In this document: piece by piece, positions 3,656 through 32,673 of the stretch
How positions within the stretch are numbered: the first letter of the stretch is position 1
Layout of the letters: each line of letters opens with the position of its first letter
Assembly (NCBI GenBank): GCA_004294265.1
Contig: REAG01000132.1
Span: 1-33,196, forward strand
DNA from: Cytophagales bacterium
GTDB lineage: Bacteria; Bacteroidota; Bacteroidia; Cytophagales; UBA9547
Length of the DNA: 33,196 nt
Reading direction: 5' to 3'
Notes under the pieces: model-generated
Database searches by the model: none
What the model was told of the DNA's origin: nothing
The model's input: the letters and a program-made list of their open reading frames with translations, nothing else
Translations under genes and position numbers: made by a program

Positions 3656-3716
3656 ATTAAATAGTTCAACAAAATTGGTTTTTAAACCGATTTTTAACTC
3701 ATTAAAAAATAAAAAA

Positions 3717-5306
3717 ATGGCAACAACGACATCAATAGACCTCGTTACAAGGGCGGAAGTAATTAAGAACGAAACCGCTGAAGGTCAGAACACAGCTACA
3801 CGAGTGGGTAGTTGGCTTAGGGATAGTTGGGATACCTTGCAAACGCAAATTGGCGGTTTTGTGAGCAATACGGCTTTGGGAACTTTACTCGCAAATTATA
3901 TTCCTTTGAGCCAAAAAGGTGCAGTTAATGGCGTAGCTCCGCTGGGAGCAGATGGGAAAGTGCCAGTTGAGAATTTACCTTATGATTTTTATTTTAAGCA
4001 AGAAGGGACTACTACTGTTACTTTAGCTAATAATTCAGCGTTTGCATTACTTCCATTTCAAAAACGAACTATAAAAGCTAACACAATAAAAAAAGGAGAT
4101 GTTTTTTATTGTAATTTTTATTTTTCAATGGTTGCAAATTCTATGTTTGGAGTTTCTCCGTCTTATTTAATCGGAATTAATTCGTTAGTATTTTCACCAA
4201 GTTCGTTTAATAATAATATTAATCAATTTAGATTAGAAATATTAAATATAGGTGGGATAAATAATGTAAAAGTAAGTTATTTAAATACTTCAAATGAATT
4301 ATTTATATCAGTTGATTTATCAGTTGATTTAGTTATTGATATACGAAAAGGTCTTGATAGTAGATTATCTACTGCATTTTTTACCGACATTCAATTTTAC
4401 AAAAAAAATATTTTTCAGGTTTGGGGTAATATTTCGGGTAGTATTACAAATCAAACAGATTTGCAAACAGCATTAGATGCTAAAAGTAGTGCAACTCAAA
4501 CTATGGGATTGCAAACTCAAATAAATGCTATAAACACACTATTAAATTCTAATGATGTGGATTTGGATAATGTGCAAGAATTAGTCGATGCCATTAAAAC
4601 TTTGCAAACCAGTTTAGCTACTATTTTGGTAAATAATTTGACGGCTGGAGGCACAACTAAGGCACTTACGGCTGAGCAAGGAAAGATTTTGAAAACTTTG
4701 GTAGATGGCAAACAAAATGCACTTGTAAATATTTCTGATTCCGAAAAGCGGTTGAAAAATGGATTAACAACTACCCTAGATTTTGGAGAAAGAGTTCTCT
4801 TGGATAGCAATTCGCAAAGCATGGCACCACCATCGGACGAAGGTTATTATGAAACTGTATTAGATTGGGTAGCTAAAAAAATGTATGCCTTTGATGGTCC
4901 AAACACAAATGTAAGTATTGACTGGCAAAATAGACAACTGAAAGATAGCAATGGTAGTGTTAAATTTAATTGGGAAACGCAAACAATAGCTTTACCCTTA
5001 GCAGATTATGATAGTATTCCCGCTGTAATAATTAATGATACTAATGATATACCTATTTTAATTGCAGACCAAAGAACTCTTTTATCTTCTAATACGCGTG
5101 TTTTTGATTTTCAAGATTGTAAATTAAATATGTCTATCGGAAGTATAGCTGGGCAAAATGGATTCACAATTAGATTGCAAAATATGTCTGAACCCGAGTC
5201 TTCGGTTAATGGCGGAGGTATGCAATGTGGCACAATTTTTGTTAAAAATGGAGCTTTAAAATATAAAGGAGCAAACGGTACGGTTACGACAATTGCACCA
5301 GCATAA
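3717..5306 (+). CDS. Tail fibre / receptor-binding protein
   Basis: 529 aa from the ATG at 3717 (MATTTSIDLVTRAEVIKN). An in-frame upstream start at 3675 would add 14 residues encoded by low-complexity DNA and is less likely. The N-terminal part holds the fibre signature KGAVNGVAPLGADGKVPVENLP. The middle carries repeated trimeric-fibre segments (NQTDLQTALDAKSSAT, QELVDAIKTLQTSL, LTAGGTTKALTAEQGKILKTLVDGKQN). The C-terminal third is beta-rich without a recognisable chaperone domain and would carry the variable receptor-binding part. The product would decide target specificity of the particle. Its place between the LysM-like gene and the J-like gene is unusual, since fibres normally follow the J and I genes. 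Confidence 0.75.
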   Translation: MATTTSIDLVTRAEVIKNETAEGQNTATRVGSWLRDSWDTLQTQIGGFVSNTALGTLLANYIPLSQKGAVNGVAPLGADGKVPVENLPYDFYFKQEGTTTVTLANNSAFALLPFQKRTIKANTIKKGDVFYCNFYFSMVANSMFGVSPSYLIGINSLVFSPSSFNNNINQFRLEILNIGGINNVKVSYLNTSNELFISVDLSVDLVIDIRKGLDSRLSTAFFTDIQFYKKNIFQVWGNISGSITNQTDLQTALDAKSSATQTMGLQTQINAINTLLNSNDVDLDNVQELVDAIKTLQTSLATILVNNLTAGGTTKALTAEQGKILKTLVDGKQNALVNISDSEKRLKNGLTTTLDFGERVLLDSNSQSMAPPSDEGYYETVLDWVAKKMYAFDGPNTNVSIDWQNRQLKDSNGSVKFNWETQTIALPLADYDSIPAVIINDTNDIPILIADQRTLLSSNTRVFDFQDCKLNMSIGSIAGQNGFTIRLQNMSEPESSVNGGGMQCGTIFVKNGALKYKGANGTVTTIAPA

Positions 5307-8061: not shown

Positions 8062-9108
8062 ATGAAAAATTATCTATTAATTGGTTCGGCATCGCTTTTG
8101 CTAACCTTATCATGTTCTAAAAAAGAGGATGCTCCTGCTCCAAATCCAAAGCCTGAACCAGCACCAACAAGTGTAAATTTAAGATCAACAACGGCAAAAC
8201 CGTCTGCAAAACCAAATGTGGCGGTAAATGTAAAAAACGAAGCTAGTAAATCGACTAGAGTTACTTCGGCTTCTCCTCAAAGTGCAGATAAAGATAAAAA
8301 CGGAGCAACTGTAACTTTGCAATCTGCCAATCCATCAAATGCTCAAAGTGTGAAAGTTATGCGAGGAAATACTTCGAGCCAAAGAGCTGAGGTAGATGGT
8401 GCTATGCAAGGTTGGTCTATTTCTGAAGTGTATATTATGGATGAGTTTGACCCAAGTGACACTATTTTTGTGGTTTCTAATAACCCAAAACATTATGATG
8501 CAGACCATGATGGCATTGAAGATATAAACGATTTAGATGACGACAACGATGGAATACTAGATACGGAAGACACTGATGATGACGGGGATGGGATATTGGA
8601 TATTAACGAAGATGGCGATGCTGATAATGACGGAATACTAGATGTGGATGATTTGGATGATGACAATGACGGAATTTTGGATGTTAATGAAGTTTTAGCC
8701 ATTATGGATTCGGATGGTGACGGCATAAATGATGATTTAGATACGGATGACGACAACGATGGAATACCAGATACGGAAGACACTGATGATGACGGAGACG
8801 GTATTTCAGATGAAGATGAAGATGATTTTGCAAGCCTAGATTCGGAATTTGATTTGTCTTTATTCTTCTTTGCAAATGGCGAATATATTACTTATGATGC
8901 TTCAGATTCTAACGATGCTTGGGATTGGGGTAACTGGTATTCAGATGCAACAGGCAAATATATTTCTTTAGATTTAGGTACAGATGCCGAAGAATTATAT
9001 GAAATAGAATCAATTTCAACTGATGGTTCTTCTATGCTTGTTTCTACATACGATGAAGATTCTGATTTAAAAGTATATATCAAATTAGCAACAATTAATC
9101 TTAACTAA
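8062..9108 (+). CDS. Surface lipoprotein with thrombospondin type 3-like calcium-binding repeats
   Basis: 348 aa. A hydrophobic signal ends in LTLSC-SKKED (Cys18), a Bacteroidota-style lipoprotein signal with acidic residues nearby that often marks surface export. A Pro/Ala/Ser-rich linker (20-110) follows. Residues about 146-252 are Asp-rich TSP3-like repeats (DADHDGIEDINDLDDDNDGI, DSDGDGINDDLDTDDDNDGI), expected to bind calcium and form a rigid stalk. The C-terminal 80 residues form a separate small domain with WDWGNWYSDATGKYISLD. Two segments of the repeat region are almost identical in DNA (8536-8585 and 8746-8795), a sign of recent internal duplication or gene conversion. Function is unknown; adhesion or structural support is likely. 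Confidence 0.78.
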   Translation: MKNYLLIGSASLLLTLSCSKKEDAPAPNPKPEPAPTSVNLRSTTAKPSAKPNVAVNVKNEASKSTRVTSASPQSADKDKNGATVTLQSANPSNAQSVKVMRGNTSSQRAEVDGAMQGWSISEVYIMDEFDPSDTIFVVSNNPKHYDADHDGIEDINDLDDDNDGILDTEDTDDDGDGILDINEDGDADNDGILDVDDLDDDNDGILDVNEVLAIMDSDGDGINDDLDTDDDNDGIPDTEDTDDDGDGISDEDEDDFASLDSEFDLSLFFFANGEYITYDASDSNDAWDWGNWYSDATGKYISLDLGTDAEELYEIESISTDGSSMLVSTYDEDSDLKVYIKLATINLN

Positions 9109-9290
9109 AATTGAGATTAATTTATATAAAGTCCAATATATAATTACAAATTCCTTTTTTAACTTTTCCCCATTGGGGAAATAAGAAAGGGGTTTTCTAA
9201 AAATTAAATTGTTAATATTTAATGGACTCAATTTAAAATATATTACTAAAAATTAAATGTTAAGTTGTTAAATTATAAACTCAATCAATT

Positions 9291-9329
9291 AAAAATCCCT
9301 ATCAAAAATTTATTTTGATAGGGATTTTT
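9291..9329. terminator. Strong bidirectional terminator-like hairpin
   Basis: AAAAATCCCTATCAAAA (9291-9307) and its exact complement (9313-9329) form a 17-bp stem with a 5-nt loop, ending in runs of T on both strands. It lies 180 bp after the TSP3 lipoprotein gene. Confidence 0.75.
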
Positions 9330-9340
9330 TCATTTCTTAA

Positions 9341-9459
9341 GGGAACCTCTAAAAACTCCAATATTGTTTTCAAAAACCCCACCCAAACCAATTTCTGCTA
9401 CGAAACCGCAGTATCCAAGTAGGAAGGCTTTATCGGAATTGAGGTTTTTAGGAGTTCCC
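9341..9459 (-). mobile_element. 119-bp MITE-like element, copy 1
   Basis: The ends GGGAACCTCTAAAAACTCCA and the complement of GAGGTTTTTAGGAGTTCCC are imperfect terminal inverted repeats of about 20 bp. Its reverse complement matches the element at 15890-16008 over the full 119 bp with about ten mismatches by eye. No transposase is encoded. TAA flanks both sides as a possible short duplication. Confidence 0.8.
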
Positions 9460-9880
9460 TAAAATAAATGTTTCCACAATACCAATTAGATAATTTTGAT
9501 ATTTCAGCTCTAGAAACTTTACGTAACATTACAACCAAGACAGAATTTATGTCATAGAATTTAGAGTAAAAAACATACTTACTCGAGGATAGAATGCATC
9601 CGAATACGAATTAAAAGGCTTTATGGTAAGTTAGTTAATTAATTCAAGATTTTCCTCTTTGAGAAAAGCCAGTATTTATAATGATTTTTATAAGCAGATA
9701 GCAATATAAACAACACCATTTATAATCAAAAAGGACTTTACATTCATAGCCATTCGCTCTAAATTATATTGAGTCCACTAAATATTTACAATTAAATTTT
9801 CATAAAACCCTTTCTTATTTCCCCAATGGGGAAAAGTTTGCAATGAATTCGTAATTATTTATTTGAATTTATATAGATTT

Positions 9881-10651
9881 TCAAAATGTTCCAACCCCAT
9901 ACTGTGAAGAAACTTGAACAGGTTGAACTTTAACTATTTTAAATAAATGTAATAAACGAATTACTTGATAGGTTGGATCAAATTCAAACCATTTTAAAGC
10001 AAAATTTACTCTTTTAGGGTACATGTGATGATTATTTTGAAATAACTCTCCAAAACATACAAAATCCCAAATAAATGTATTTTTAGATTTATCATTTGCA
10101 TTGTAGTTGTGATAACCATGCTTATGTCCACTCCAATTAACAATAGCACCGTGTATAGGTCCCATCAAAAAATGAATTGGTAAGAGAAAATACAAATACC
10201 ACATACCTGTTGGAACAAAATAAATATAAAATAAAGAATAGGCAGTTCCCCATGCAAGCCTAACAAGCCAAATATCGCCCAAATTTTCTACAGCTTTCCA
10301 TTCTGGTAACTCTTTCAAGAAACGTTCTTCTGGATTTTTTTTATATTTTAAAAAATCATTGTAAATATTTTTTGTGTCCCACATCATGGAAAATAGATTT
10401 TTTGAATGATGTGGAGAGTGAGGGTCTTTTGGAGTATCGCTATAAGCATGATGCATACGATGTAATATTGCGTATGCTCTTGGAGATAAATACGATGCTC
10501 CTTGAGTTACAAATTGAAACACAAAAAAGAACTTTTCCCAAAATTTATTCATTGTAAACATTTTATGGGCGGCATATCTGTGCAAAAAGAATGTTTGACT
10601 AAACAGGCTCATGTACCAATGCAGGATAAAGAATATGACTATTGCTACCAT
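9881..10651 (-). CDS. Acyl-CoA / fatty acid delta-9 desaturase
   Basis: A 256-aa membrane di-iron desaturase that would introduce a cis double bond into fatty acyl chains to adjust membrane fluidity. The three histidine clusters are present: HRYAAH (residues 24-29), HRMHH (64-68) and QNNHH (205-209). HKHGYHNYN (177-183) supplies the further conserved histidines. Hydrophobic segments lie at about 1-20, 135-170 and around 195. The protein is slightly shorter than animal stearoyl-CoA desaturases, as is common in bacteria. The neighbouring intergenic sequence has a -7 box at 10710-10717. No fatty acid gene lies nearby, so it is probably transcribed alone. The redox partner is unknown. Confidence 0.9.
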   Translation of the reverse strand: MVAIVIFFILHWYMSLFSQTFFLHRYAAHKMFTMNKFWEKFFFVFQFVTQGASYLSPRAYAILHRMHHAYSDTPKDPHSPHHSKNLFSMMWDTKNIYNDFLKYKKNPEERFLKELPEWKAVENLGDIWLVRLAWGTAYSLFYIYFVPTGMWYLYFLLPIHFLMGPIHGAIVNWSGHKHGYHNYNANDKSKNTFIWDFVCFGELFQNNHHMYPKRVNFALKWFEFDPTYQVIRLLHLFKIVKVQPVQVSSQYGVGTF

Positions 10652-10709
10652 TTTATTTTTATTAAGTTAAGATATATACGTAAGTAGTTGTAATACGATA
10701 ATGTTTTTA

Positions 10710-10717
10710 CAAATTTA
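10710..10717 (-). promoter_or_regulatory. Candidate -7 box for the desaturase
   Basis: On the minus strand this reads TAAATTTG (TAnnTTTG), 59 nt ahead of the start. No clear TTG -33 element is visible, so it is a weak call. The rest of the 457-bp gap 10652-11108 holds only a palindromic repeat and the toxin-antitoxin promoter region. Confidence 0.35.
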
Positions 10718-10920
10718 AAATTAAATATTTGATTTTATTCATAAATATTAATTAAATAGAAAGTTTTTATTCAAAATTCTCTTTTTAAATCACTTAAAAC
10801 TATTGAAAAGCCTATTTAATTACCAAACGCTTAAAAACTTCGTTTTTTGAGTTACTTTGCCCTTGAGAAAAGGATAGTGATAAGGTTTTGAAATAAATAT
10901 TTGTGTTTTAAGTTTTTATC

Positions 10921-10981
10921 CCGTGGCAGGTGTATTCACCTGACACCGTATAAGTGTGGCATGTAAAGACACCTGCCACGG
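10921..10981. repeat. Dispersed palindrome CCGTGGCAGGTGT, copy A
   Basis: CCGTGGCAGGTGT (10921-10933) pairs exactly with ACACCTGCCACGG (10969-10981), followed by ATTCAAG. Related copies lie at 11735-11790 and 12684-12743. The inner part of this copy is diverged. Confidence 0.85.
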
Positions 10982-11029
10982 ATTCAAGTTTTTTTTTATG
11001 AATTAAAAAAGCTAAAAAAGAAGTTTTTG

Positions 11030-11091
11030 GTATAAATTTTTTAAATTTATACATTAATGATAAAAATTTTAAAATCATTTAACTATATTTG
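11030..11091 (+). promoter_or_regulatory. Promoter and possible operator of the toxin-antitoxin pair
   Basis: TATATTTG at 11084-11091 fits the -7 consensus, 17 nt before the antitoxin ATG. A 10-bp perfect palindrome, GTATAAATTT (11030-11039) with AAATTTATAC (11043-11052), lies just upstream of the -33 region, where a self-repressing antitoxin could bind. The operator role is inference. Confidence 0.4.
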
Positions 11092-11108
11092 TATAACAAC
11101 AACAGAAT

Positions 11109-11321
11109 ATGCAAACCACACAAATAATGCAAGCGATTAATCAACTGCCAATATCCAAGCGGTTTTTTGTGGTGGAGGAAACTATAAAATCTATTAAAAA
11201 AGAAGAAATGAAGCATCGCATGGAATCAGCAGCTGAAGCACTTTATAATGATTATGCAACAGACAAAAACCTTACTGCTTTTACAACTTTAGACTTTGAA
11301 CATTTTTATGAAACAAAGTGA
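11109..11321 (+). CDS. Antitoxin of a MazEF/PemIK-type module
   Basis: A 70-aa, helix-rich, charged protein (MQAINQLPISKRFFVVEETI, then KSIKKEEMKHRMESAAEALY) of the kind found ahead of MazF/PemK toxins in Bacteroidota and cyanobacteria. Its end overlaps the toxin start by 14 nt, so the two are translationally coupled. It should neutralise the toxin by binding and probably represses its own promoter. The C-terminal DFEHFYETK would be the toxin-binding tail. There is no SpoVT/AbrB fold of classical MazE, so it is a non-MazE antitoxin type. Confidence 0.7.
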   Translation: MQTTQIMQAINQLPISKRFFVVEETIKSIKKEEMKHRMESAAEALYNDYATDKNLTAFTTLDFEHFYETK

Positions 11322-11646
11322 AATTTGGTTGATTGATTTAGACCCAACCAAAGGTGCTGAAATTCAAAAAAAAAGACCTGCCATTATTATAAACGACAAC
11401 AAACTTGGCAAACTGCCCTTAAAAATAATTATTCCTATTACAGACTGGAAAGATCATTATGAAATTGCCCCTTGGATGATAAAAATTGAGCCAAATATCA
11501 AAAATGGACTTTCTAAAACTTCCTCTGCTGATTGTTTTCAAATTCGTTCGCTTTCGCAAGAAAGGCTTATTAAAAAATTAGGAACCATTGACAAAACCAT
11601 ACTTGATGAGATTAAAGAAGCAATTAGAAAAGTATTAGATTTATAA
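11308..11646 (+). CDS. MazF/PemK-family endoribonuclease toxin
   Basis: 112 aa from the ATG at 11308 (MKQSEIWLIDLDPTKGAEIQ). The upstream TTG at 11296 would add only MNIF and is unlikely. Motifs typical of the family are the N-terminal EIWLIDLDPTKGAEIQ loop, KKRPAIIIND, the IIPITDW strand and the C-terminal KTSSADCFQIRSLSQERL segment. The family cleaves mRNA at short sites to arrest growth. It is full length with no sign of decay. The module is bracketed by two copies of the CCGTGGCAGG palindrome. Confidence 0.85.
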   Translation: MKQSEIWLIDLDPTKGAEIQKKRPAIIINDNKLGKLPLKIIIPITDWKDHYEIAPWMIKIEPNIKNGLSKTSSADCFQIRSLSQERLIKKLGTIDKTILDEIKEAIRKVLDL

Positions 11647-22429: not shown

Positions 22430-23278
22430 TTATATAATTTTTTTCTCAATTGATTGAATTACATTTCCATTTATATCAAACAAAACAAAAACTAAATGAC
22501 AATTATCTGAATTCCAACTTTCATTCAAATTTCCTCTGAAATTAATCCCATATAATCGTTTTGTTGTTAAATCTTTAACTTTGACGGTCGAAATAATTTC
22601 TCTGTTTTGTGATTGATAAACATGGCTTTCCCAAATACCATAATTATTGGATTTTTCAAGCTCAAGTTGAATTTTTGAAGTCCAATCTGTGGGTGAAATA
22701 AGCCTTGAGGAGCCCTGAAAATCAATTCTATCAATCATACCAATCGGAACTGCCTGTATTCCAAAAGCAGTTTTTATGCTTTCTCCAACATCTGATCTAA
22801 AATCGTAACTATATTTTCCTGGTCTTGGCGTAGAGAAAAAATCTGATGCGTGTAATTTAATAATATTAACTTTGTTTTTAAAATTAAGTTCGATGTCTTC
22901 AAAAACTGGTTTGGTGTTTTTTGGGCAGTTTCCGCATAAGCTTCCAGTAAAATATTCTAAAAATACTTTTTTTGTTTGAGTTGAATCTGCAAAAGTGCCA
23001 TCTACAATAATTGAATCAAGTGCATTTGATTTTATAAAATTTAAACTTCCTCTCAAAACTTTGTTATGAACATAATCTAAAACATCATCTGAACCAACTT
23101 TTTGAGGTTTTATAATATTACTTTCAGTTATATAAACTAAAATTTTGTTTGTGTTGTTTTTATCATCTGTAACAATTGATGATTGATCAGTTTTTATATC
23201 TTTCAATTTTATTTGATCACAAGAAAGTAAGGTTTTAAAAATAAAAAATAAAATAATAAATTTTAATGTCTTTTTCAT
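22430..23278 (-). CDS. Omp28-like lipoprotein with thioredoxin-like CGNC domain, permuted order
   Basis: A 282-aa lipoprotein (LLSC, Cys20). Residues 104-185 are the Omp28 thioredoxin-like core (VFLEYFTGSLCGNCPKNTKP, IIKLHASDFF, YDFRSDVGESI, AFGIQAVPIGMIDR), with CGNC at 115-118. In known Omp28 proteins this core comes first and the VYLTED...IKPQ...DYVHNHVLRG segment follows. Here that segment (KILVYITESNIIKPQ, DYVHNKVLRGSLN, residues 45-80) precedes the core. The normal C-terminal end (WNSDNCHLVFVLFD...IEKKI) is retained. It starts one base after the DUF6029 stop and is the last gene of the operon. The permutation judgement is from recalled family sequences. Confidence 0.72.
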   Translation of the reverse strand: MKKTLKFIILFFIFKTLLSCDQIKLKDIKTDQSSIVTDDKNNTNKILVYITESNIIKPQKVGSDDVLDYVHNKVLRGSLNFIKSNALDSIIVDGTFADSTQTKKVFLEYFTGSLCGNCPKNTKPVFEDIELNFKNKVNIIKLHASDFFSTPRPGKYSYDFRSDVGESIKTAFGIQAVPIGMIDRIDFQGSSRLISPTDWTSKIQLELEKSNNYGIWESHVYQSQNREIISTVKVKDLTTKRLYGINFRGNLNESWNSDNCHLVFVLFDINGNVIQSIEKKII

Positions 23279-23279
23279 A

Positions 23280-25001
23280 TTAAAAACTACTTGAAACTGT
23301 TAAAGTTAAACCATCTGTTGCGGGCACAAGCCTACAAACGCCCCCTACACAAAGTACACCAGCTCGCCTTCTTCCATAACTCAAAGATACTCTAGTTGTT
23401 TTTTTATTATATCCTATTGTTCCAGAAAGATAATGAGTAGGTTCTTTATATAATTCTTCAATTCCTTGAGGTTTAGAATCTGTTAAATAACCGTAATTAA
23501 AATCATTAAGTACAGAAAAAAACCAACTGTTTCCAATGCTATATTCACCCAAAAACGTACCCCAATTTCCAAAATCTTGACGAGAATACAAATGTTGTAA
23601 TTCCATTCTCGCTATTTTACGTGGTTTAATTTTAAAAGATACGTCAACAACAAGCACATGAGCTCTGATTATGTTTTTGAATGGCGAAACTTGAACTACT
23701 TTATTGTCTAATTCTAAGTAAATGTAAGCGGTGTTAAATTTCCATTTTTCTGTTAATTTTTTATTTAATTCAAAGCTGAGGTTTCTGTAAAGCATGTGTC
23801 CGCCTAAGTGAATCCCATTTTTATCTATTTTAAAATCATCTGCCAAACTAGAAGTATATCCTAAAAATTTAGCATTAGGCTCTTTTGCTATTTCTTCAGG
23901 TGTAATTGGAGTTTTGTTAATATTGTTTACCATAGCATAATTTACAGAAATTTTAGTTCCATATTTTCCTCCAAAAAGTGTTCCTTGGTCAAATCTATAC
24001 ATCATGTCTAGTTGAATGCCAATTTCGCCATTGGGTTGGGTTGCATAAGGATAAATAGATGCTAGTCTATAAACATGTTGAGGCGTTCCTGCTGGCAAAT
24101 AATTAATCATCAAATCATTTAAAGTTGCGGATCTTGCACTTCTAAAATTCATGTTATCTAATCTTTTAAACTGAGCTACAATTCCAAAATTTTTGGGAGA
24201 ATAAGAAGTGCTTAGCCAAAGTGCATCACCTTTTTTAAAAATATTGCCATTAATTTCGGAAGGATCGTTAATTTTATAAGCATATTCTGAGGTAATATTA
24301 AAGTTATTTCGAGTTATGTTAAACCTAGCTCCATAGCAAGATACGTTTTCTGGAAGGGTTAAAGTTGGATTTTTATCGGCTTCAAACTTACTTACAAAAC
24401 TGCCACCTAAAGAAATTCTGGTAGCTGAACTATCCAAAAATGGCAATAAGTCATTTAGATATATTTCTGCATCAGCCCCCCTAACCTTTCCTGCACTTTT
24501 ATCAAAATAGAAGCGTTGATCGCCTATTAAACCTTTGATAACAACTCCTTTTATGCCTGTATATCGGATTCTGAATCCGTCAAAAGCATTATCATAGCCT
24601 AATCCCCATTCCCAATAGGTTCTTAAAGTAAGCCCATTTCCAAATTGCTCATAAAAATTTCCTGCCGTAACGTCCAATCCATGATGTTTGAAATTTATGA
24701 ATCTAAATGGAATTCCACCTCCTTTGTAACGTCTGTCAAAACCTTGCATGGCTGGGTAATATCCTTCAAAACGCCCACCAGCCGTAATATTATCTCTGTA
24801 ATACATTAAGTTAAGGTAGCTATTACTGCCTGATTTTTCTGGAACTGCTGTTGCATTTATGCTTGAATCGGCTCTATATGTTTGAAAGTCAGTTTGAAAA
24901 TCTCCATGAATTTCTCCTGCGTCTATTTTTTTTTGTGATATTATATAATTTGATGTTAATAAAAAAGTAAAAAAATAGTAAAAATGTAATCGTATGTTCA
25001 T
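23280..25001 (-). CDS. DUF6029-family outer-membrane beta-barrel protein
   Basis: A 573-aa protein with a signal peptide ending near residue 22 (SNYIISQ) and a long run of beta-strands. It matches DUF6029: GEIHGDFQTDFQTYRADS, NAFDGFRIRYTGIKGVVIKG, GSFVSKFEADKNP, and the C-terminal SYGRRRAGVLCVGGVCRLVP then LTLTVSSSF with its terminal aromatic. This predicts a large barrel in the outer membrane, function unknown. Its place between a TlpA thioredoxin and an Omp28-like lipoprotein (spacings 24 and 1 bp) suggests the barrel works with them. The paired cysteines in LCVGGVC near the C-terminus are possible redox targets (inference). Confidence 0.82.
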   Translation of the reverse strand: MNIRLHFYYFFTFLLTSNYIISQKKIDAGEIHGDFQTDFQTYRADSSINATAVPEKSGSNSYLNLMYYRDNITAGGRFEGYYPAMQGFDRRYKGGGIPFRFINFKHHGLDVTAGNFYEQFGNGLTLRTYWEWGLGYDNAFDGFRIRYTGIKGVVIKGLIGDQRFYFDKSAGKVRGADAEIYLNDLLPFLDSSATRISLGGSFVSKFEADKNPTLTLPENVSCYGARFNITRNNFNITSEYAYKINDPSEINGNIFKKGDALWLSTSYSPKNFGIVAQFKRLDNMNFRSARSATLNDLMINYLPAGTPQHVYRLASIYPYATQPNGEIGIQLDMMYRFDQGTLFGGKYGTKISVNYAMVNNINKTPITPEEIAKEPNAKFLGYTSSLADDFKIDKNGIHLGGHMLYRNLSFELNKKLTEKWKFNTAYIYLELDNKVVQVSPFKNIIRAHVLVVDVSFKIKPRKIARMELQHLYSRQDFGNWGTFLGEYSIGNSWFFSVLNDFNYGYLTDSKPQGIEELYKEPTHYLSGTIGYNKKTTRVSLSYGRRRAGVLCVGGVCRLVPATDGLTLTVSSSF

Positions 25002-25025
25002 AAACTATTTTGAATTCAAAAAAAT

Positions 25026-25538
25026 TTAATTTTTTAAAGTTTCCTTTTTTATTAATTCAAAAAGTTCGTCTTCGTCTCCTGGGTTGTAAGAATTATGTTG
25101 CCATATAATTTCACCATTTCTATTTAACAAAAATGTGTGTGGAATGTTGTTTACGTTTAAAGCTCTCTTAAAATCTCCGTTAGAATCTATTAAAATATGA
25201 TATTTCCAGCCTCTGCTGTTTGCAATAGGAGCAACTTTTGCTATGTTTCGGGCATCGTCAATAGATATTGCAACAAATTTTACGCCCGTTTCTTTTACCC
25301 AAGTTGGGAAAACCTCATTGATGTTATCTAATTCTTGAATACAAGGTTTGCACCAAGTTGCCCAAAAATCAATTACTGTCAATCCAGAGTCGTTTAGAAT
25401 AGATTTACTATTAATATTTTTTCCTGTTATATCTTTTAAATCTATTTCAGGAAGTTTTCTTCCACTTTGTGCTTGTAAGATATTTGAAAATAACAGACAA
25501 ATAAATACTAAAAGTAAATTCTTTTTTATGAATTGCAT
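25026..25538 (-). CDS. TlpA-like periplasmic thioredoxin
   Basis: A 170-aa protein with a signal peptide (LLFSNILQAQ) and a thioredoxin/AhpC-TSA domain: LPEIDLKDITGKNINSKSIL, then VIDFWATWCKPC (W62, C63, C66), VKFVAISIDD, and a cis-proline in the NNIPHTFLLN segment. Proteins of this type reduce disulfides in the periplasm. It lies inside the operon, 32 bp after the Trx-BACON gene and 24 bp ahead of the DUF6029 gene. It is a likely electron source for the CPYC and CGNC proteins around it, by inference. Confidence 0.88.
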   Translation of the reverse strand: MQFIKKNLLLVFICLLFSNILQAQSGRKLPEIDLKDITGKNINSKSILNDSGLTVIDFWATWCKPCIQELDNINEVFPTWVKETGVKFVAISIDDARNIAKVAPIANSRGWKYHILIDSNGDFKRALNVNNIPHTFLLNRNGEIIWQHNSYNPGDEDELFELIKKETLKN

Positions 25539-25570
25539 GGATAATTTAAGTATAAATATTTTTGAAATTG

Positions 25571-27250
25571 TTATTCAATAATTAATTTATGTATTTTATT
25601 GTCTTCCGTTTGAACGAAGTATAAACCTTGGTTTAATCCTTTTAAATCAATTTCTTTTGTTGATTTTACTTCAATCAGTAGCTTACCCATTGTGTTAAAA
25701 AGTTTTAAGCTTGATGCTGGGTTAAGTTTTAAAGTTTGATTAACTCCAATAGGATTAGGGGTTAAAACATAATTAATTGATTTTTCTGAATTTTTTGTTT
25801 CAATATTTGTTGTACTTGATGTTTGAGAAACAGTTACCATTCTTGCAGTATTAAATCCTACAAAGCTTATTGTAGCGATTCTTGTTGCTCCAGTAGTGTT
25901 ATCTGAATTTGTAGATAAAATGACAATGTTAGAAGCGTCTCCTGAGTTTGGATCAGCAGTCAACCAAGACGGAAGGCCTATGATAGACCAATACGTGTTA
26001 CAGCTTAAAAATACCTCATTAGAGTTTATTCCAGAAAATGCTACATCGGCTAAATCTGTTTCAAAAATTAAAGGTACTGGTTCTTGTGTAACGGTTATAT
26101 ATTTTGTGATGCCGTCACCAACAACAGTTAAAACAGTGTTGTTTTTATGTGCTGTTAGACTTTCTCTAACAGAAATTGAAAATTTTCCATTATTTATTCC
26201 TGAAGCCGAAGCAAGTGTTATCCAATTATCACTTTGAAATACTTTCCAATTAACATTACTTGTAACTGTAATAATTGTCGAAGAAGCATCTATTGGAAAT
26301 GAAACATCAAGAGTTGATACATTCAAATTTCCGCCAATTCCGTTTTGTTTAATTTCAACCATTCTTCTGTTACCAATTCCAGAAAAAGATAAAACTCCAG
26401 TTCTAGATTTTGCTCCATTATTAGCAGTAGCTGTTGCTTGAAAAATAATATTTCCGTTTCCAGAAGTAGTGGTGATTGTTACCCAATCACTAAGAGATTT
26501 AACACTCCAAGCAATTGAGCTTGAAACTGAAATATTTACTGTATTACCTTGGTTGAAGAAAACTAAATTTTCTGTTGCTACATTAAGGTTAGGTCCTGGA
26601 TTAAAGTTTTTTGCTATTGCATTATCAATAAAATTGTTGTCAACCAATCCATATCCAAGGCTTGTTACTTTTTTGGTTATTGGATCTATAATTCTATAAA
26701 CAGAAGGCATATCTGGAGTTGTCCAAAATGCGGAATTATTTGTGTTGTGATGCTTTCTGCCACCAGGCAACAAAGGATCACTCCAAGATGCATCTACAAA
26801 GCTAAATTTAGCTTCGTTTAAAAAATTAAATCTACCTTTTAATAATTCAATGTCCTCACAACTTCCATCAGCATAAAGTTTTTTATCTGCAAACCATATT
26901 GTGAGGTCGTTTTTATAACTCATAATAGTAGAGTTTGCTGATGTTGCTGCGTTCATACAATAGGGACAATCGCTTGCAGTTACAACTACTAAAATAGCTT
27001 TTCCATAATTTGCTATATCTTCTTCTATGCTTCTTCTTTCAAAATGTGGATTACATGTAGATACTAAGCCTTCTATCGGAAATTTTATAGAAGCAAAATC
27101 ACTTGAGGGACCGCCAATAATCAACTCTTCGTTGGTTACAAGTGTTGCAGTATTACCGCTTGGAAATAAAATTCCTCCAACAGTTACAACTTGTGCATAT
27201 AAGGAAGTACTTACAAATAAAACGCTTGCTACAAATATTTTTTTTAACAT
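25571..27250 (-). CDS. T9SS-secreted protein: CPYC thioredoxin-like domain, 3 BACON repeats, sorting domain
   Basis: 559 aa. Signal peptide MLKKIFVASVLFVSTSLYA. Residues 20-218 form a thioredoxin-like domain with CPYC at 95-98 after a hydrophobic AILVVVTASD strand, and a proline-containing DMPSVYRIIDPITKKVTS segment in the cis-Pro position. Extra cysteines C66 and C131 and a His pair (167-168, KHHNT) are shared with the 1432-aa paralogue. Three BACON repeats follow (about 221-480; WSVKSLSDWVTI, NWKVFQSDNWITL, YWSIIGLPSWL). The end (NYVLTPNP...LNQGLYFVQTED...HKLIIE) is a type A T9SS sorting domain. The protein is therefore exported through the outer membrane and fixed at the surface or released. 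Confidence 0.82.
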   Translation of the reverse strand: MLKKIFVASVLFVSTSLYAQVVTVGGILFPSGNTATLVTNEELIIGGPSSDFASIKFPIEGLVSTCNPHFERRSIEEDIANYGKAILVVVTASDCPYCMNAATSANSTIMSYKNDLTIWFADKKLYADGSCEDIELLKGRFNFLNEAKFSFVDASWSDPLLPGGRKHHNTNNSAFWTTPDMPSVYRIIDPITKKVTSLGYGLVDNNFIDNAIAKNFNPGPNLNVATENLVFFNQGNTVNISVSSSIAWSVKSLSDWVTITTTSGNGNIIFQATATANNGAKSRTGVLSFSGIGNRRMVEIKQNGIGGNLNVSTLDVSFPIDASSTIITVTSNVNWKVFQSDNWITLASASGINNGKFSISVRESLTAHKNNTVLTVVGDGITKYITVTQEPVPLIFETDLADVAFSGINSNEVFLSCNTYWSIIGLPSWLTADPNSGDASNIVILSTNSDNTTGATRIATISFVGFNTARMVTVSQTSSTTNIETKNSEKSINYVLTPNPIGVNQTLKLNPASSLKLFNTMGKLLIEVKSTKEIDLKGLNQGLYFVQTEDNKIHKLIIE

Positions 27251-27293
27251 CTTTAGTTTTAAATTTTATGAATTAAATTAATGTAAGATTGTG

Positions 27294-28247
27294 TTAGTCC
27301 ACAATTATTTTTTTGGTAATATTAGAACTAGTTTTGATGAAATATATTCCTTTTTTCAATCCTAAAATTTCAAGTTTGTTTACTTGTGTTTGTTTCAATA
27401 TTAAATTACCAATCATATCATAAAGTTCAAAACTAATATTTTGATTAAATTTCAAAACTTCATTTTGCCCAACTGGATTAGGAGAAAATTGAAATTCTTC
27501 TGAAGTTGGTTTGTCAGTTGAAATTTTTGAAACTATTCCTGCTAATTGTATAATGTTTATGCTTGTTACTGTATTTAAGCTAGTTACGGTTAATATTGCA
27601 TTTCTTGCTTCAGAAGAGTTCGCTTCTAGCGGTTTAAAATTTAATATTCCATTAGTTAATCCAGTAATTGAGTTTACTAACAACCAAGATGGGATACCTG
27701 TGATAGTCCAAGCTGAATTGCTTGTTATGCTCACGCTTTGACTAGAATTTATTCCAGATAATGAAACCACAGAACGTCCTAATCTTAAAACTGGTAGTGG
27801 TAAATTAGAAAATCTAAAAGAAACAATCTGAATCTCAGTAGGTGTTGCTGCGTCATAAGTTTCATATTCTAATTCTAAAACGCCTGGAGTGGAATTGGTA
27901 TATAATGTAATCTTAAATAATTGAGATGCTCCAGTTACAGAAAGTATTGATTGTCCACTTTCTGACGCAGCTCCTGGTTGATTGCATTTTTTAGAGTCGC
28001 ATAAAGTAAAGACCCAACCAGCAGGTATTTTACTTGTGCTTGTTTTTAATCTGTAAACTAAATTTACGGTTGTATTGGATAAGTTTTTGGCTTTTGCATC
28101 CAATAAATACTCTTCATCAGAAACAAAGATTTCAGTTTGATCTATGATTGGTCTTTCAAATTCAAAAGTGTTTGAAGCACTTAAAAGTCCAAAAAATGAG
28201 AGATTTAATATAAATATTAAATGTATTGTTGTAGCTATTTTCTTCAT
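27294..28247 (-). CDS. T9SS-secreted protein with one BACON repeat
   Basis: 317 aa. Signal peptide near residues 1-24. Residues 25-150 form an Ig-like domain with LVYRLKTSTSKIPAGWVFTL and a Cys pair (C83, C88 in LCDSKKC), a pattern seen in other Bacteroidota surface proteins. One BACON repeat follows (about 155-235; SNSAWTITGIPSWLLVNS), then a type A T9SS domain (FSPNPVGQNEVLKF...LKKGIYFIKTSSN, KIIVD). It has no thioredoxin domain. It sits 43 bp upstream of the 559-aa Trx-BACON gene in the same operon and may be a partner or substrate of it. A -7 box lies at 28275-28282. Confidence 0.75.
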   Translation of the reverse strand: MKKIATTIHLIFILNLSFFGLLSASNTFEFERPIIDQTEIFVSDEEYLLDAKAKNLSNTTVNLVYRLKTSTSKIPAGWVFTLCDSKKCNQPGAASESGQSILSVTGASQLFKITLYTNSTPGVLELEYETYDAATPTEIQIVSFRFSNLPLPVLRLGRSVVSLSGINSSQSVSITSNSAWTITGIPSWLLVNSITGLTNGILNFKPLEANSSEARNAILTVTSLNTVTSINIIQLAGIVSKISTDKPTSEEFQFSPNPVGQNEVLKFNQNISFELYDMIGNLILKQTQVNKLEILGLKKGIYFIKTSSNITKKIIVD

Positions 28248-28274
28248 TTTTTTTTATTTTATATGATAATAATA

Positions 28275-28282
28275 CAAATTTA
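28275..28282 (-). promoter_or_regulatory. Candidate -7 box for the redox operon
   Basis: TAAATTTG on the minus strand, 27 nt ahead of the 317-aa gene and after the terminator of the 1432-aa gene, so the downstream six-gene run could have its own start. A -33 TTG was not found. Confidence 0.4.
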
Positions 28283-28301
28283 ATAATTTATTATTAAAAA
28301 A

Positions 28302-28340
28302 CATAATTTCACTTTAAAATTTATTTAAAGTGAAATTATG
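28302..28340. terminator. Terminator-like hairpin after the 1432-aa gene
   Basis: CATAATTTCACTTTAAA (28302-28318) and its exact complement (28324-28340) form a 17-bp stem with a 5-nt loop, 34 bp past the stop of the 1432-aa gene. It separates that gene from the downstream operon. Confidence 0.7.
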
Positions 28341-28374
28341 TAAGATAATTAATTATATTTTTAAGTTCTTTTAA

Positions 28375-31300
28375 TTATTCAATCACTAGTTTTTTGGTAA
28401 TTCCATTCTCGAACTTTATGAAAAATATACCTTTATGAAGATTAGTCGTTTCTATTTTATTATTTAGGATTGGGACATTTAATTTTGTTCCTAAAAGGTT
28501 ATATACTTCTGATTTATAATCTGAAATTATTTCAACAGTACCGCCTAATGAAATTGGATTGGGATACATAGAAATAATTGTGTTTTCAGGTGATAAGCTA
28601 CTCAAATTAGTTGTAGGACTAGCTTTTTGACTAACAATTATTTCTTGAAAGCCTTTTTGTCCAGTAATTGTTAAGGTTGCCATTCTTTCAGCACCTGAAT
28701 TTAGAGAAGGATTTAAAATAATCGTCATGTCGCCTTCACCAGAAATAGGATCTGCTTCTAACCAATTAGGTAAGCCAGTAATTGTCCAGAATGTGTTTGA
28801 AGTAATGTTTAAAATACCAGAATTTATATCACTTGAAAGTGTCAAAACCGTCATGTCTAGATTTAATGATTGCGTTGCTCCTTCTTGAAATATATCAATT
28901 ACCTTTTTAATTCCTAATCCAGATACTGTTACTGTTCCCATTCTTGATTGGGTAGTAGGGTTACTAATTGTTCTAATTTTAAATTGTCCATCATCAATTC
29001 CAGTTGCATTCATAATTGAAACCCAAGTCAAATCTTCAAAAACAGTCCAACTTGAATTGCTAGTAACATTTATATCAAATTCTGAAAGGGCAGATGTAGT
29101 TGTAACAATTGATTTATCAATAGACCAAGTTGGTATTCCTCCGTTTTGATTAATTTCAAAGAATAAAGTTTGGCTTCCTCCTATTATAGTTACAACTGCT
29201 GATCTAAATCTAGAGCTAGGATTTTCAATAAAAGAGAATTCAATATTCTGATTTGAATTTCCAGATGTAGTTGACAATGTAATCCAGTTTGGCAATACAG
29301 AGGCAGACCAAGTTATGTTACTAGTGATGGTAAAAGTAGCAGTACCTGCAAAGGAATTGACACTCATATTGCTAGAAGACAAATTAAATATGGTTGCAGC
29401 TGCATTTTGGTTAATTTCAATAACTCTATTTATCGTTGAGCCAGAAACAGTAATGGTTGCAGTTCTATCGGAAGTTATGAGATTTTCTGCTACCGAGAAA
29501 GTCAATAATCCATTTAATATTCCTGTGTTGGTAGAAATATTTATCCAGCTATGTGGATTTGAAACTGTCCAATCTAAGTTACTAGAAATATTAACAGATT
29601 GCGTAGCTGATGGGTTTGCTACAAATGTTAATGAATTATTTGAAACCGACAATGAAGGCGATTCTCCTAATTGATTTACTGTAATTTCTCGGTTAAATCC
29701 TCCACCAGAAACTGTGATTATTGCACTTCTAGACAAGTAATAGTTATTGCTTGAAGTTGAAATTTCTATAGTAGCGTTGTTATTACCACTTGTATTATTC
29801 AAACTTATCCAAGTTACAGGATTTGAAACATTCCAGTTTGTATTACTTAGTATATCAACATTTGCAACTCCTGAAGAGGCATTCATTTGAAAGTTGTTGG
29901 AAGAAACTGTTAATTCAAAGTTTGCACCTGCTTGAGTAATGTTTACTATTTGGATTAAAGATGCTGCAGTAACAGTAATTGATGCTATTCTAGCAGTTGT
30001 AATTGTATTTTTGCTAACTTCAATGTCTATGGTTTGATTCATAGAACCAGAATTTGAACTTAAAGTTATCCAACTTTGGTTGTTTGAAATGCTCCAATTT
30101 GTGTTTGAAGTAATACTAAGACTTTTACTAGAATTTAAGTTATTGTATGTCAAATTATTAGTTGATACTCCCAAACTTGGATTTGCTCCCAAAATGGTTA
30201 CATTAACAACTTTTGAATTTCCAGATCCAAAATTTAAGGTAATTTGAGCGGTTTTATTCAATATGCTTGTATTTGCACTTGTATTTGCAGTTAAGGTCAT
30301 GTTGCCAAAGCCTGAATTGGTGCTTAAAGTAAGCCAAGTTTGGTTACTGGATGCTGTATATGAAGTATTGCTCGAAATAATTATATTTTGAGAACCTCCA
30401 GCCGAAGTTTTACTAAAACTTGAAATATCGGTTGAAAGTACAGGAGTAGCTCCTGCTTGGCTTACAAGTACTGATTGAATAGACCCTAAAACACTTACAG
30501 AAATAATTGCATTTCGAGAAGAAGTACTTGTGTTTGTTGTTGCTGTTATACTTGGAGTTGCATTACCTGAGCCACTTAAAGCACTTGATGAAAGCCAAAG
30601 ACCTGAGCTTGATAATACCCAATTTGTGTTTGTTAAAATATTAATATTTTGAGAAGAGCCTGCTTCTCCATAACTAATACTTGCAGGATTTACAGTTAAA
30701 ACAGCTGACGCTCCGTTTTGGGTTAAAGAAATGACTTGTTTTAATGAACCTCCAGAAATAGTAATTTCTCCAGCTCTTGGTGTAATATTTATATTTGAAC
30801 TAGCTGTAATATTAAAGCTTCTTAAACCTGCTGTACCTGAAGTAGTTGAAAGTGTAACCCAAGCTACATTTGATGAAACTATCCAATTAACATTGCTTGT
30901 AACTGTTACTCCTCTAATTCCTCCTGACGAATTATAACTTAAACTCGTAGGATTTAAAACCATGCTTTCGTTTGCTCCTGTTTGAGTTATGGTAATAAAC
31001 TGAGTTAAAGATGCACCAGAAACCGTAATAATTGTGCTTCTTGAAATAATAGAAGTATTTTCATCGGCTGATACATTTACGTTTGCATTTCCTGAACCTG
31101 AATTACTCCCTAACGTGAGCCAAGCTACTGTTTCATTTACAGTCCAAGTAGGTAAATTACTTGTTATAGTTAAGTTTTTTGAACCTGCAGCCGAACCAAA
31201 TCCATAAATTGTAGGGTTTACAACTAAAGATGGTGTAATTCCAGGCTGAGTAACAGTTAAAATTCTTGATAAAGTACTTCCACTAATAGTTACACCTGCC

Positions 31301-32673
31301 GAACGAGAAAATATGGTCGTATTGGGGCTAGATGTTACAGTAAAAACACTGTTCCCGTTTCCAGAAGTTATATTTGTACTCAACCAAGTGGCATTTTCAG
31401 ATACTGTCCAACTCATATTACTAGTTACTGTAACTGGATTTAAACTTCCTGCTTGTGCAGGATTCAAAGCATTTGGATTGATAGTTAATTGCGGAGCTGC
31501 TCCTGTTTGGGTAATATTTACTATGATATTGTTACTGCCAGACGAAAAAGTTATCGAACCTGTTCTTAAAGTAATACTTGCATTTGCACTTGCAGTAGAA
31601 GAAATAACTAAATTTGTTGTGCCACTAGCAGAGCTTAAAGTAATCCAACTTGGTGTTCCACTAGTGTTCCAATTCATATTGCTTGTAATCGAAATATTAT
31701 TTGATGACGAGGCAGAACCATATACCAATTGAACAGGATTAACATTAAAAATTGGTGCAGCACCTGCTTGAGAGACAGTTATTGTTCTAGTTATACTTCC
31801 GCCTGTAACAGAAATAGTTGCAGTTCTAGCATTTGTACTCAAATTAGCAGTTGCATTTGCAGTAAGAGTTCTATTTCCACTACCTGAAGCAGTACTAAGT
31901 GTAAGCCAAGCTGCATTATCTGCGGTTACCCAACCACCAGAACCAGTTATAGAAAAATTTAAACCACTAGCTGAGGCAGGAAATGAAAGGGACATAGGTG
32001 CTAGAGTCAAACTTCCGCCAGGAATAAAGTTTCTTGCAATAGCTGCGTCTAAAGCAGCTACATCTAAATAATAACCATAAGATGTTAGTTTTTTTGTTTG
32101 AGGATCAAAAATTCTGTACGAAGAAGGCATTCCTGGACCCATCCAAAAAGCTGTGTTTTTGTCGTTGTGATGTGGTCTTCCAAGAGCTCCATCCCACCAA
32201 TAAGATTCCATAAAAGTAAAATTTGCTTGATTCAAAAAAGAAGATTGTGTAAGATTTTTTTGACTTCCAACTTCATCGCAATCGCTTGTCTGACCTTCTA
32301 GCCTTGCGACAACATGCCACAAACGTATGTTTGGGAGTCTTGAAATTATGTCATTTTTTGCTGCATTTGCTGCAATTACACAATACGGACAATTACTTGG
32401 TGAAGTAACTACAAGCACAACTTTTCCATAAGTATCTATTTCTTGATTTAGGGTTCTAGGAGTCTCAGCAGGCAAACAATTAGTTGCAGCAGCTAAAGGA
32501 AATGTGATATTCAATATATCACTCGATGGACCACCAATTAATAACTCTCCATTAATATGAGAATTTGCATCACCACCATCTGGTATTCTGATGCCATTTA
32601 CAGTTACAATTTGAGAATAACTTACTATTGAAATAGTTAATAGTAAAAACGAAAATTTGATAAAATTTTTCAT
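28375..32673 (-). CDS. Giant T9SS-secreted protein: CPYC thioredoxin-like domain and 13 BACON repeats
   Basis: 1432 aa. Signal peptide (FSFLLLTISIVSYS). Residues 21-218 form the same domain as in the 559-aa paralogue: CPYC at 95-98, C66 and C132, PHHN (167-170), and MPSSYRIFDPQTKKLTS. Thirteen BACON repeats of about 87 residues fill 222-1349, each marked by a SNxxW...W(I/L)xLSxxSG pattern (NWNTSGTPSWITL, NWSISNNQSWITL, SWTVFEDLTWVSI and others). They are diverged from each other, so not a recent expansion. The end (MYPNPISLGGTVEII...LHKGIFFIKFENG, KLVIE) is a T9SS sorting domain. BACON repeats are probable glycan or mucin binders or spacers in Bacteroidota, so this may be a redox-active stalk at the cell surface. 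Confidence 0.83.
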   Translation of the reverse strand: MKNFIKFSFLLLTISIVSYSQIVTVNGIRIPDGGDANSHINGELLIGGPSSDILNITFPLAAATNCLPAETPRTLNQEIDTYGKVVLVVTSPSNCPYCVIAANAAKNDIISRLPNIRLWHVVARLEGQTSDCDEVGSQKNLTQSSFLNQANFTFMESYWWDGALGRPHHNDKNTAFWMGPGMPSSYRIFDPQTKKLTSYGYYLDVAALDAAIARNFIPGGSLTLAPMSLSFPASASGLNFSITGSGGWVTADNAAWLTLSTASGSGNRTLTANATANLSTNARTATISVTGGSITRTITVSQAGAAPIFNVNPVQLVYGSASSSNNISITSNMNWNTSGTPSWITLSSASGTTNLVISSTASANASITLRTGSITFSSGSNNIIVNITQTGAAPQLTINPNALNPAQAGSLNPVTVTSNMSWTVSENATWLSTNITSGNGNSVFTVTSSPNTTIFSRSAGVTISGSTLSRILTVTQPGITPSLVVNPTIYGFGSAAGSKNLTITSNLPTWTVNETVAWLTLGSNSGSGNANVNVSADENTSIISRSTIITVSGASLTQFITITQTGANESMVLNPTSLSYNSSGGIRGVTVTSNVNWIVSSNVAWVTLSTTSGTAGLRSFNITASSNINITPRAGEITISGGSLKQVISLTQNGASAVLTVNPASISYGEAGSSQNINILTNTNWVLSSSGLWLSSSALSGSGNATPSITATTNTSTSSRNAIISVSVLGSIQSVLVSQAGATPVLSTDISSFSKTSAGGSQNIIISSNTSYTASSNQTWLTLSTNSGFGNMTLTANTSANTSILNKTAQITLNFGSGNSKVVNVTILGANPSLGVSTNNLTYNNLNSSKSLSITSNTNWSISNNQSWITLSSNSGSMNQTIDIEVSKNTITTARIASITVTAASLIQIVNITQAGANFELTVSSNNFQMNASSGVANVDILSNTNWNVSNPVTWISLNNTSGNNNATIEISTSSNNYYLSRSAIITVSGGGFNREITVNQLGESPSLSVSNNSLTFVANPSATQSVNISSNLDWTVSNPHSWINISTNTGILNGLLTFSVAENLITSDRTATITVSGSTINRVIEINQNAAATIFNLSSSNMSVNSFAGTATFTITSNITWSASVLPNWITLSTTSGNSNQNIEFSFIENPSSRFRSAVVTIIGGSQTLFFEINQNGGIPTWSIDKSIVTTTSALSEFDINVTSNSSWTVFEDLTWVSIMNATGIDDGQFKIRTISNPTTQSRMGTVTVSGLGIKKVIDIFQEGATQSLNLDMTVLTLSSDINSGILNITSNTFWTITGLPNWLEADPISGEGDMTIILNPSLNSGAERMATLTITGQKGFQEIIVSQKASPTTNLSSLSPENTIISMYPNPISLGGTVEIISDYKSEVYNLLGTKLNVPILNNKIETTNLHKGIFFIKFENGITKKLVIE

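Follow-up and report, generated by a model that had tools for sequence, protein, structure and literature searches.

A conserved TlpA-DUF6029-Omp28 operon with T9SS-secreted thioredoxin-like proteins: a candidate surface thiol-disulfide exchange module in Bacteroidota

Genes and features of the locus

Six adjacent open reading frames on the minus strand run from position 32673 down to 22430 of the window, by which the whole analysed stretch of 33,196 nt is meant, and encode proteins of 1432, 317, 559, 170, 573 and 282 aa in that order (Table 1). All six were present where an earlier sequence-only reading had put them, separated by between 1 and 127 nt (127, 43, 32, 24 and 1 nt), and the families named in that reading (BACON, the T9SS tail, Redoxin/TlpA with WCKPC, DUF6029 and Omp28 with CGNC) were upheld by Pfam and NCBIfam profiles. 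Nearly all mature cysteines of the six proteins fall in the conserved pairs described below. The genes downstream of these, one TPR and one DUF4292, were not counted in the unit. The source is a draft Bacteroidota genome (G000) of 3.4 Mb in 383 contigs, which also encodes a DsbD_TM protein (683-aa open frame) and SprA, the latter being present in 39/40 genomes and hence non-discriminating.

Table 1 Features of the six-gene locus and their positions in the window
Feature	Position	Strand	Basis
1432-aa protein: signal peptide, CPYC thioredoxin-like domain, 11-13 BACON, weak T9SS-type tail	28375-32673	-	profile matches
CPYC thioredoxin-like domain of the 1432-aa protein	32014-32616	-	PDB profile matches; low-confidence model
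Stem-loop, perfect 18-bp, followed by a U run; terminator- or attenuator-like	28301-28341	-	z -5.0
317-aa protein: N-domain with C83-x4-C88, 1 BACON, T9SS tail	27294-28247	-	HMM, alignment, TIGR04183
559-aa protein: CPYC thioredoxin-like domain, 3 BACON, T9SS tail	25571-27250	-	profile matches
TlpA/ResA-type periplasmic thiol-disulfide oxidoreductase, 170 aa, WCKPC	25026-25538	-	Redoxin profile
DUF6029 outer-membrane beta-barrel, 573 aa, ~24 strands, CVGGVC	23280-25001	-	Pfam E 1e-167; model
Omp28-family lipoprotein, 282 aa, lipobox C20, CGNC (C115, C118)	22430-23278	-	Pfam E 7e-15

The stem-loop separates the 1432-aa gene from the 317-aa gene, and a 37-nt imperfect hairpin differing from it occurs at the equivalent place in the closest relative found, a Cytophagales MAG of the same genus (G001, JAAFIH010000007.1). 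The presence of a hairpin in the window and of a different one in G001 suggests separate expression of the first gene. Short stretches resembling the window hairpin were also found elsewhere in the genome.

The CPYC domain of the 1432-aa protein spans approximately residues 20-220 and includes cysteines 66, 95, 98 and 132, its only cysteines, and that of the 559-aa protein includes cysteines 66, 95, 98 and 131. Each domain has four conserved cysteines, two of which (C66 and C131/132) lie beyond the CPYC pair noted earlier. The N-terminal domains of these two paralogues were 44% identical, and that of the 1432-aa protein was 61% identical to its counterpart in G001. All ten PDB profile matches of the domain were to the thioredoxin superfamily, as were 56 of the 58 obtained once remote relatives had been added (best E 4.5e-4). 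An AlphaFold2 model derived from three sequences showed the expected order of elements at a pLDDT of 39, and the best Foldseek matches of this poor model were thioredoxins with an E of only about 0.1, which were not counted as evidence for the fold. By profile comparison the CPYC domain is a member of the thioredoxin superfamily. The earlier proposal of a thioredoxin fold around CPYC was borne out as far as superfamily placement, and with a model at pLDDT 39 the fold itself is putative.

T9SS sorting domains had been proposed for three of the proteins. TIGR04183 was matched above its cut-off of 23 bits at the C-terminus of the 559-aa protein (33.5 bits) and in the 317-aa protein (34.9 bits), whereas the tail of the 1432-aa protein was subthreshold when taken alone, with no NCBIfam match at E 1 or 0.01 and a local HMM match (E 0.012) below threshold by itself. 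TIGR04183 was found in 16/17 of the upstream proteins of alignment A4, including the 1437-aa same-genus relative of the 1432-aa protein, the one exception being the 1432-aa protein itself.

The BACON-CPYC proteins are a lineage-specific part of the system. Among the genomes searched, CPYC relatives with long BACON arrays occurred only in G000 and G001, and a single-sequence CPYC search of 395 genomes of the phylum returned nothing but noise outside the genus. A 302-aa CPYC version in G550 is on a different contig from the DUF6029 gene of that genome, and the remote relatives are proteins of 240-276 aa with a CxxC and a T9SS tail, some of them distant from any DUF6029. In the conserved system the slot of the BACON-CPYC protein is usually filled by another T9SS thioredoxin, of the Omp28 type or otherwise. 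In this genus the BACON repeats may act as spacers or as glycan-binding arms that tether the CPYC domain at the surface. A phage-type BACON protein was rejected as an identity for the 1432-aa protein on account of its signal peptide, thioredoxin-like domain and operon position. Two of the remote CPYC relatives (L169 5979-7911 and L170 6291-8316) each adjoin a 374-376-aa C-x-I-C protein (CSIC and CRIC), a recurring pair without DUF6029.

Cysteines C83 and C88 are the only two in the 317-aa protein and had been overlooked in the sequence-only reading. The N-terminal domain of this protein matched a family of approximately 240-aa T9SS proteins bearing the motif C-W-G-x(0-2)-C-Y (2e-9 for the HMM match, with two sequences tested), and in an alignment of 24 members that included this protein and its G001 counterpart (A9) the two cysteines were the sole invariant columns. 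An HMM of the family with the cysteines masked recovered the pair in 40/45 matches, the other five being four weak matches and one degenerate. Three representatives were scanned against Pfam and NCBIfam, in which the N-terminal domain matched no family and the T9SS tail alone was matched. These comparisons assign the 317-aa protein to a small C-x(3-4)-C T9SS family associated with the module. Three members of the small family adjoin the module in one genome (G020, L067 1407-6611), one of them without the cysteine pair.

The 573-aa protein is a full-length member of DUF6029 (PF19494, 559.5 bits over positions 8-538). Its model was confident (pLDDT 89.5, pTM 0.84) and formed a barrel of approximately 24 strands, in agreement with the large outer-membrane barrel proposed previously. 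The nearest solved folds were the 24-strand ushers FimD/PapC (3ohn, TMt 0.56, TMq 0.47), and at the level of fold the model was also similar to the copper transporter OprC and to further TonB barrels (TM ~0.4). A cysteine pair missed in the earlier reading, C551-VGGV-C556, is located in the hairpin that leads into the last strand and was invariant in 30/30 DUF6029 proteins that a Pfam search recovered from the order. The pair was likewise invariant in 48/48 aligned proteins of a second set, a weaker count since that set was partly gathered with a pattern containing CVGG(V/I)C and only the Pfam-found set is unbiased. The hairpin, between the last two strands, is predicted to be on the outer face by strand counting on the model, which assumes that both termini are periplasmic.

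The 170-aa protein has the attributes of the TlpA/ResA type, namely a Redoxin/AhpC-TSA domain (Pfam Redoxin 1.2e-18), a WCxxC motif and a signal peptide, and its match to NCBIfam ResA was 5.6e-22, yet under the curated cut-off. Residues W62-C63-K64-P65-C66 were conserved in 61/61 TlpA neighbours, which were sequences preselected for a WC..C/CKPC motif. The 282-aa lipoprotein matched Omp28 (PF11551) at 55.7 bits against a cut-off of 34.9 and NCBIfam lipoprot_Omp28 at 91 bits, under the stricter cut-off of 150, and its lipoprotein cysteine C20 and active-site C115/C118 were present in 61/61 relatives. The distribution proposed earlier, with TlpA in the periplasm, the lipoprotein and barrel at the outer membrane and the CPYC proteins secreted, is consistent with the signal peptides, the invariant Omp28 lipoprotein cysteine, the confident barrel model and the presence of SprA in the genome.

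Conservation of the gene set in Bacteroidota

The neighbourhood analysis was based on 99 non-redundant DUF6029 loci. TlpA was directly upstream of DUF6029 (-1) in 80/97 loci compared to 5/768 far genes, Omp28 was directly downstream (+1) in 78/96 loci compared to 1/768, and both adjoined DUF6029 in 69/99. A T9SS-tailed CxxC protein was at -2 in 31/95 loci versus 4/768 distant genes (p 5e-28), and most of the upstream T9SS proteins contained an Omp28 domain. The small C-pair T9SS family, which was also counted by position and tail only with cysteines not used for selection, occurred at -2/-3 in 33/182 cases versus 5/768 (p 4e-20) and was mostly divergently transcribed. Related genomes were counted as independent in these p values; given the size of the effect, kinship of the genomes is not expected to alter the conclusion. 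Co-occurrence of the genes across Bacteroidota, on which the earlier suggestion of a functional unit depended, was far above background and extended over many families. TlpA with WCKPC, DUF6029 and Omp28 with CGNC are a conserved operon core. One locus (L148, around 8143-11587) has tandem TlpA genes, with CRPC and CVPC, ahead of DUF6029.

DUF6029 was present in 31/291 genomes of the order, and the GTDB genome set contained at least 586 stretches with it, including Hymenobacter, Flavobacteriales, Bacteroidales, Chitinophaga-labelled MAGs and others. Over the 291 genomes, with a threshold of E<=1e-10 for the small family, 19 had both DUF6029 and the small family, 12 DUF6029 alone, 10 the small family alone and 250 neither (p 6e-15). 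In one family of the order (f2) DUF6029 is retained with neither TlpA nor Omp28 as a neighbour, and another (f20) keeps the small C-pair family without DUF6029; these exceptions indicate that parts of the module are separable.

In G001 the order of genes (1437, 312, 176, 575 and 313 aa) was that of the window without the 559-aa paralogue, and a genome of the same family (G006) had a 240-aa DCSVC protein with a weak T9SS tail followed by TlpA, DUF6029 and Omp28. The G001 gene set (L011 7713-18757) is located beside genes unrelated to those of the window, and another genome of the genus (G002) is without DUF6029 and the CPYC domain. The contexts in G001 and G002 suggest that the module has been gained and lost, or transferred, within the genus.

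Relation to known systems

To our knowledge, it is an open question by what means the secreted surface proteins of Bacteroidota that bear cysteines stay redox-functional beyond two membranes, and we know of no description of the passage of thiol equivalents across the outer membrane or of BACON repeats in HBP35, a T9SS thioredoxin protein of Porphyromonas gingivalis. HBP35 resembles the CPYC proteins in having a thioredoxin-type CxxC N-terminal domain, a T9SS C-terminal domain and a surface location, a likeness of layout, and it differs as a single protein for which the sections of the report covered give no TlpA-DUF6029-Omp28 operon (PMC2907840). According to the same sections, its reduction of insulin was lost on C48S/C51S substitution, a precedent for activity in a thioredoxin protein secreted by the T9SS (PMC2907840). 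A T9SS thioredoxin plus Ig-like protein of Muribaculaceae is the subject of a 2026 preprint, with no mention of this operon in the part considered (PMC13404670).

Surface thioredoxin relays exist, as in the pneumococcal CcdA-Etrx-MsrAB2 pathway, which carries electrons of cytoplasmic thioredoxin to proteins of thioredoxin fold at the surface (PMC3914529). The PDB matches obtained for the CPYC domain include thioredoxin-fold entries of the Etrx kind. However, the pneumococcal pathway is that of a Gram-positive with one membrane, no outer-membrane barrel and no T9SS, and the operon in the window is without MsrAB. Compared with the DsbD/TlpA (CcmG/ResA) pathways, the TlpA of the window is an ordinary member and the genome has a DsbD_TM protein, but those pathways end in the periplasm whereas this operon adds a barrel and secreted proteins. 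The window shares an Omp28 domain with CGNC with the Omp28 family (PF11551) and the protein 00502 of Paraprevotella clara, and T9SS-tailed Omp28 proteins are common at -2; the role of 00502 is in trypsin recruitment rather than redox (PMC9477747), and the window has another thioredoxin-like domain in the -2 slot.

DUF6029 appeared in a single paper of the literature searched, and the only function found for it was a suggested link to polysaccharide porins in that paper, on OPX proteins, which proposes that it may export polysaccharide and where neither the cysteine pair nor the operon is described (PMC9603273). Our literature search found no work in which TlpA was linked to an Omp28-related protein, or the T9SS to disulfides and TlpA, an absence that is weak as most subscription papers were outside its scope. 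The families are known; no earlier description seems to exist of the operon, of the two barrel cysteines or of the small family of T9SS proteins.

Interpretation of the locus

We favour, with moderate confidence, the explanation that the locus represents, in its local form, a module conserved in Bacteroidota for thiol-disulfide exchange at the outer membrane and surface. Its core would be the periplasmic TlpA, the DUF6029 barrel with its invariant cysteine pair and the Omp28 lipoprotein, and a secreted thioredoxin-fold protein and the small C-x(3-4)-C protein would be clients or partners delivered to the surface by the T9SS. The DsbD of the genome would keep TlpA reduced, TlpA and Omp28 would set the redox state of the barrel hairpin cysteines, and these would exchange with the secreted thioredoxin proteins, which in turn would reduce or isomerise disulfides of surface proteins, or of the small C-pair protein, in the oxidising exterior. 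A reducing direction is favoured by the WCKPC TlpA together with the DsbD supply. The relay suggested earlier, from TlpA to the lipoprotein and barrel and on to the secreted proteins, would be part of such a module; exchange among the proteins, its reductive direction, its substrates and any crossing of the outer membrane are all putative. If the hairpin faces outside, it would be out of reach of the periplasmic TlpA unless another step intervenes, and the DUF6029 pair could be a structural disulfide; both points count against the exchange reading. A stronger form, in which DUF6029 is an outer-membrane counterpart of DsbD whose CxGGxC hairpin links periplasmic TlpA/Omp28 to the T9SS-secreted thioredoxins in a relay from cytoplasm to surface, is in our judgement unlikely.

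Dsb enzymes handle the disulfides of LptD in outer-membrane assembly, and TlpA and Omp28 might instead form or correct the single disulfide of DUF6029 during its assembly, with the barrel engaged in unrelated transport and the T9SS proteins as surface accessories. This explanation has a modest chance of being correct: it would account for the invariant barrel pair and the strict adjacency of TlpA and Omp28, and is compatible with the suggested export of polysaccharide (PMC9603273), but a pair in a short local hairpin should need no isomerase, and the conserved cysteine pairs and thioredoxin folds of the secreted partners are left unexplained.

Handling of metal or haem, in which the cysteine pairs are ligands kept reduced by TlpA, Omp28 and the secreted thioredoxins and the barrel is an uptake channel, seems rather improbable. 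HBP35 is a T9SS thioredoxin that, in the sections of the report covered, binds haemin and sustains growth when haemin is scarce (PMC2907840), and the DUF6029 model resembles OprC and TonB barrels at the fold level, although that likeness is generic at TM ~0.4 and no metal transporter or regulator recurred among the neighbours read. Adhesion or capture at the surface, with the T9SS thioredoxin/BACON proteins binding glycans or foreign proteins and their cysteines structural, is decidedly improbable; the long BACON arrays in the genus and the recruitment of trypsin by 00502 of Paraprevotella clara, an Omp28-related T9SS protein (PMC9477747), are in its favour, but it does not explain the tight tie to periplasmic TlpA or the conserved CxxC sites. 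That the genes are coincidental neighbours with no joint function is highly implausible despite the isolated DUF6029 of family f2, since the core is together in many distant genomes, with both partners adjacent in 69/99 loci from many families and orders, and looks unlike a chance cluster.

A conserved operon combining the barrel, a periplasmic TlpA, the lipoprotein and T9SS thioredoxins makes the question of surface redox directly testable. It also gives a functional handle on DUF6029, and its context defines the small T9SS protein family.

Elsewhere in the window, a 543-aa ORF (3675-5306) had a weak match below cut-off to a phage tail-fibre repeat, the only Pfam result for the three scanned among several ORFs in the region of 1-9 kb. 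The 543-aa ORF is possibly phage-derived.
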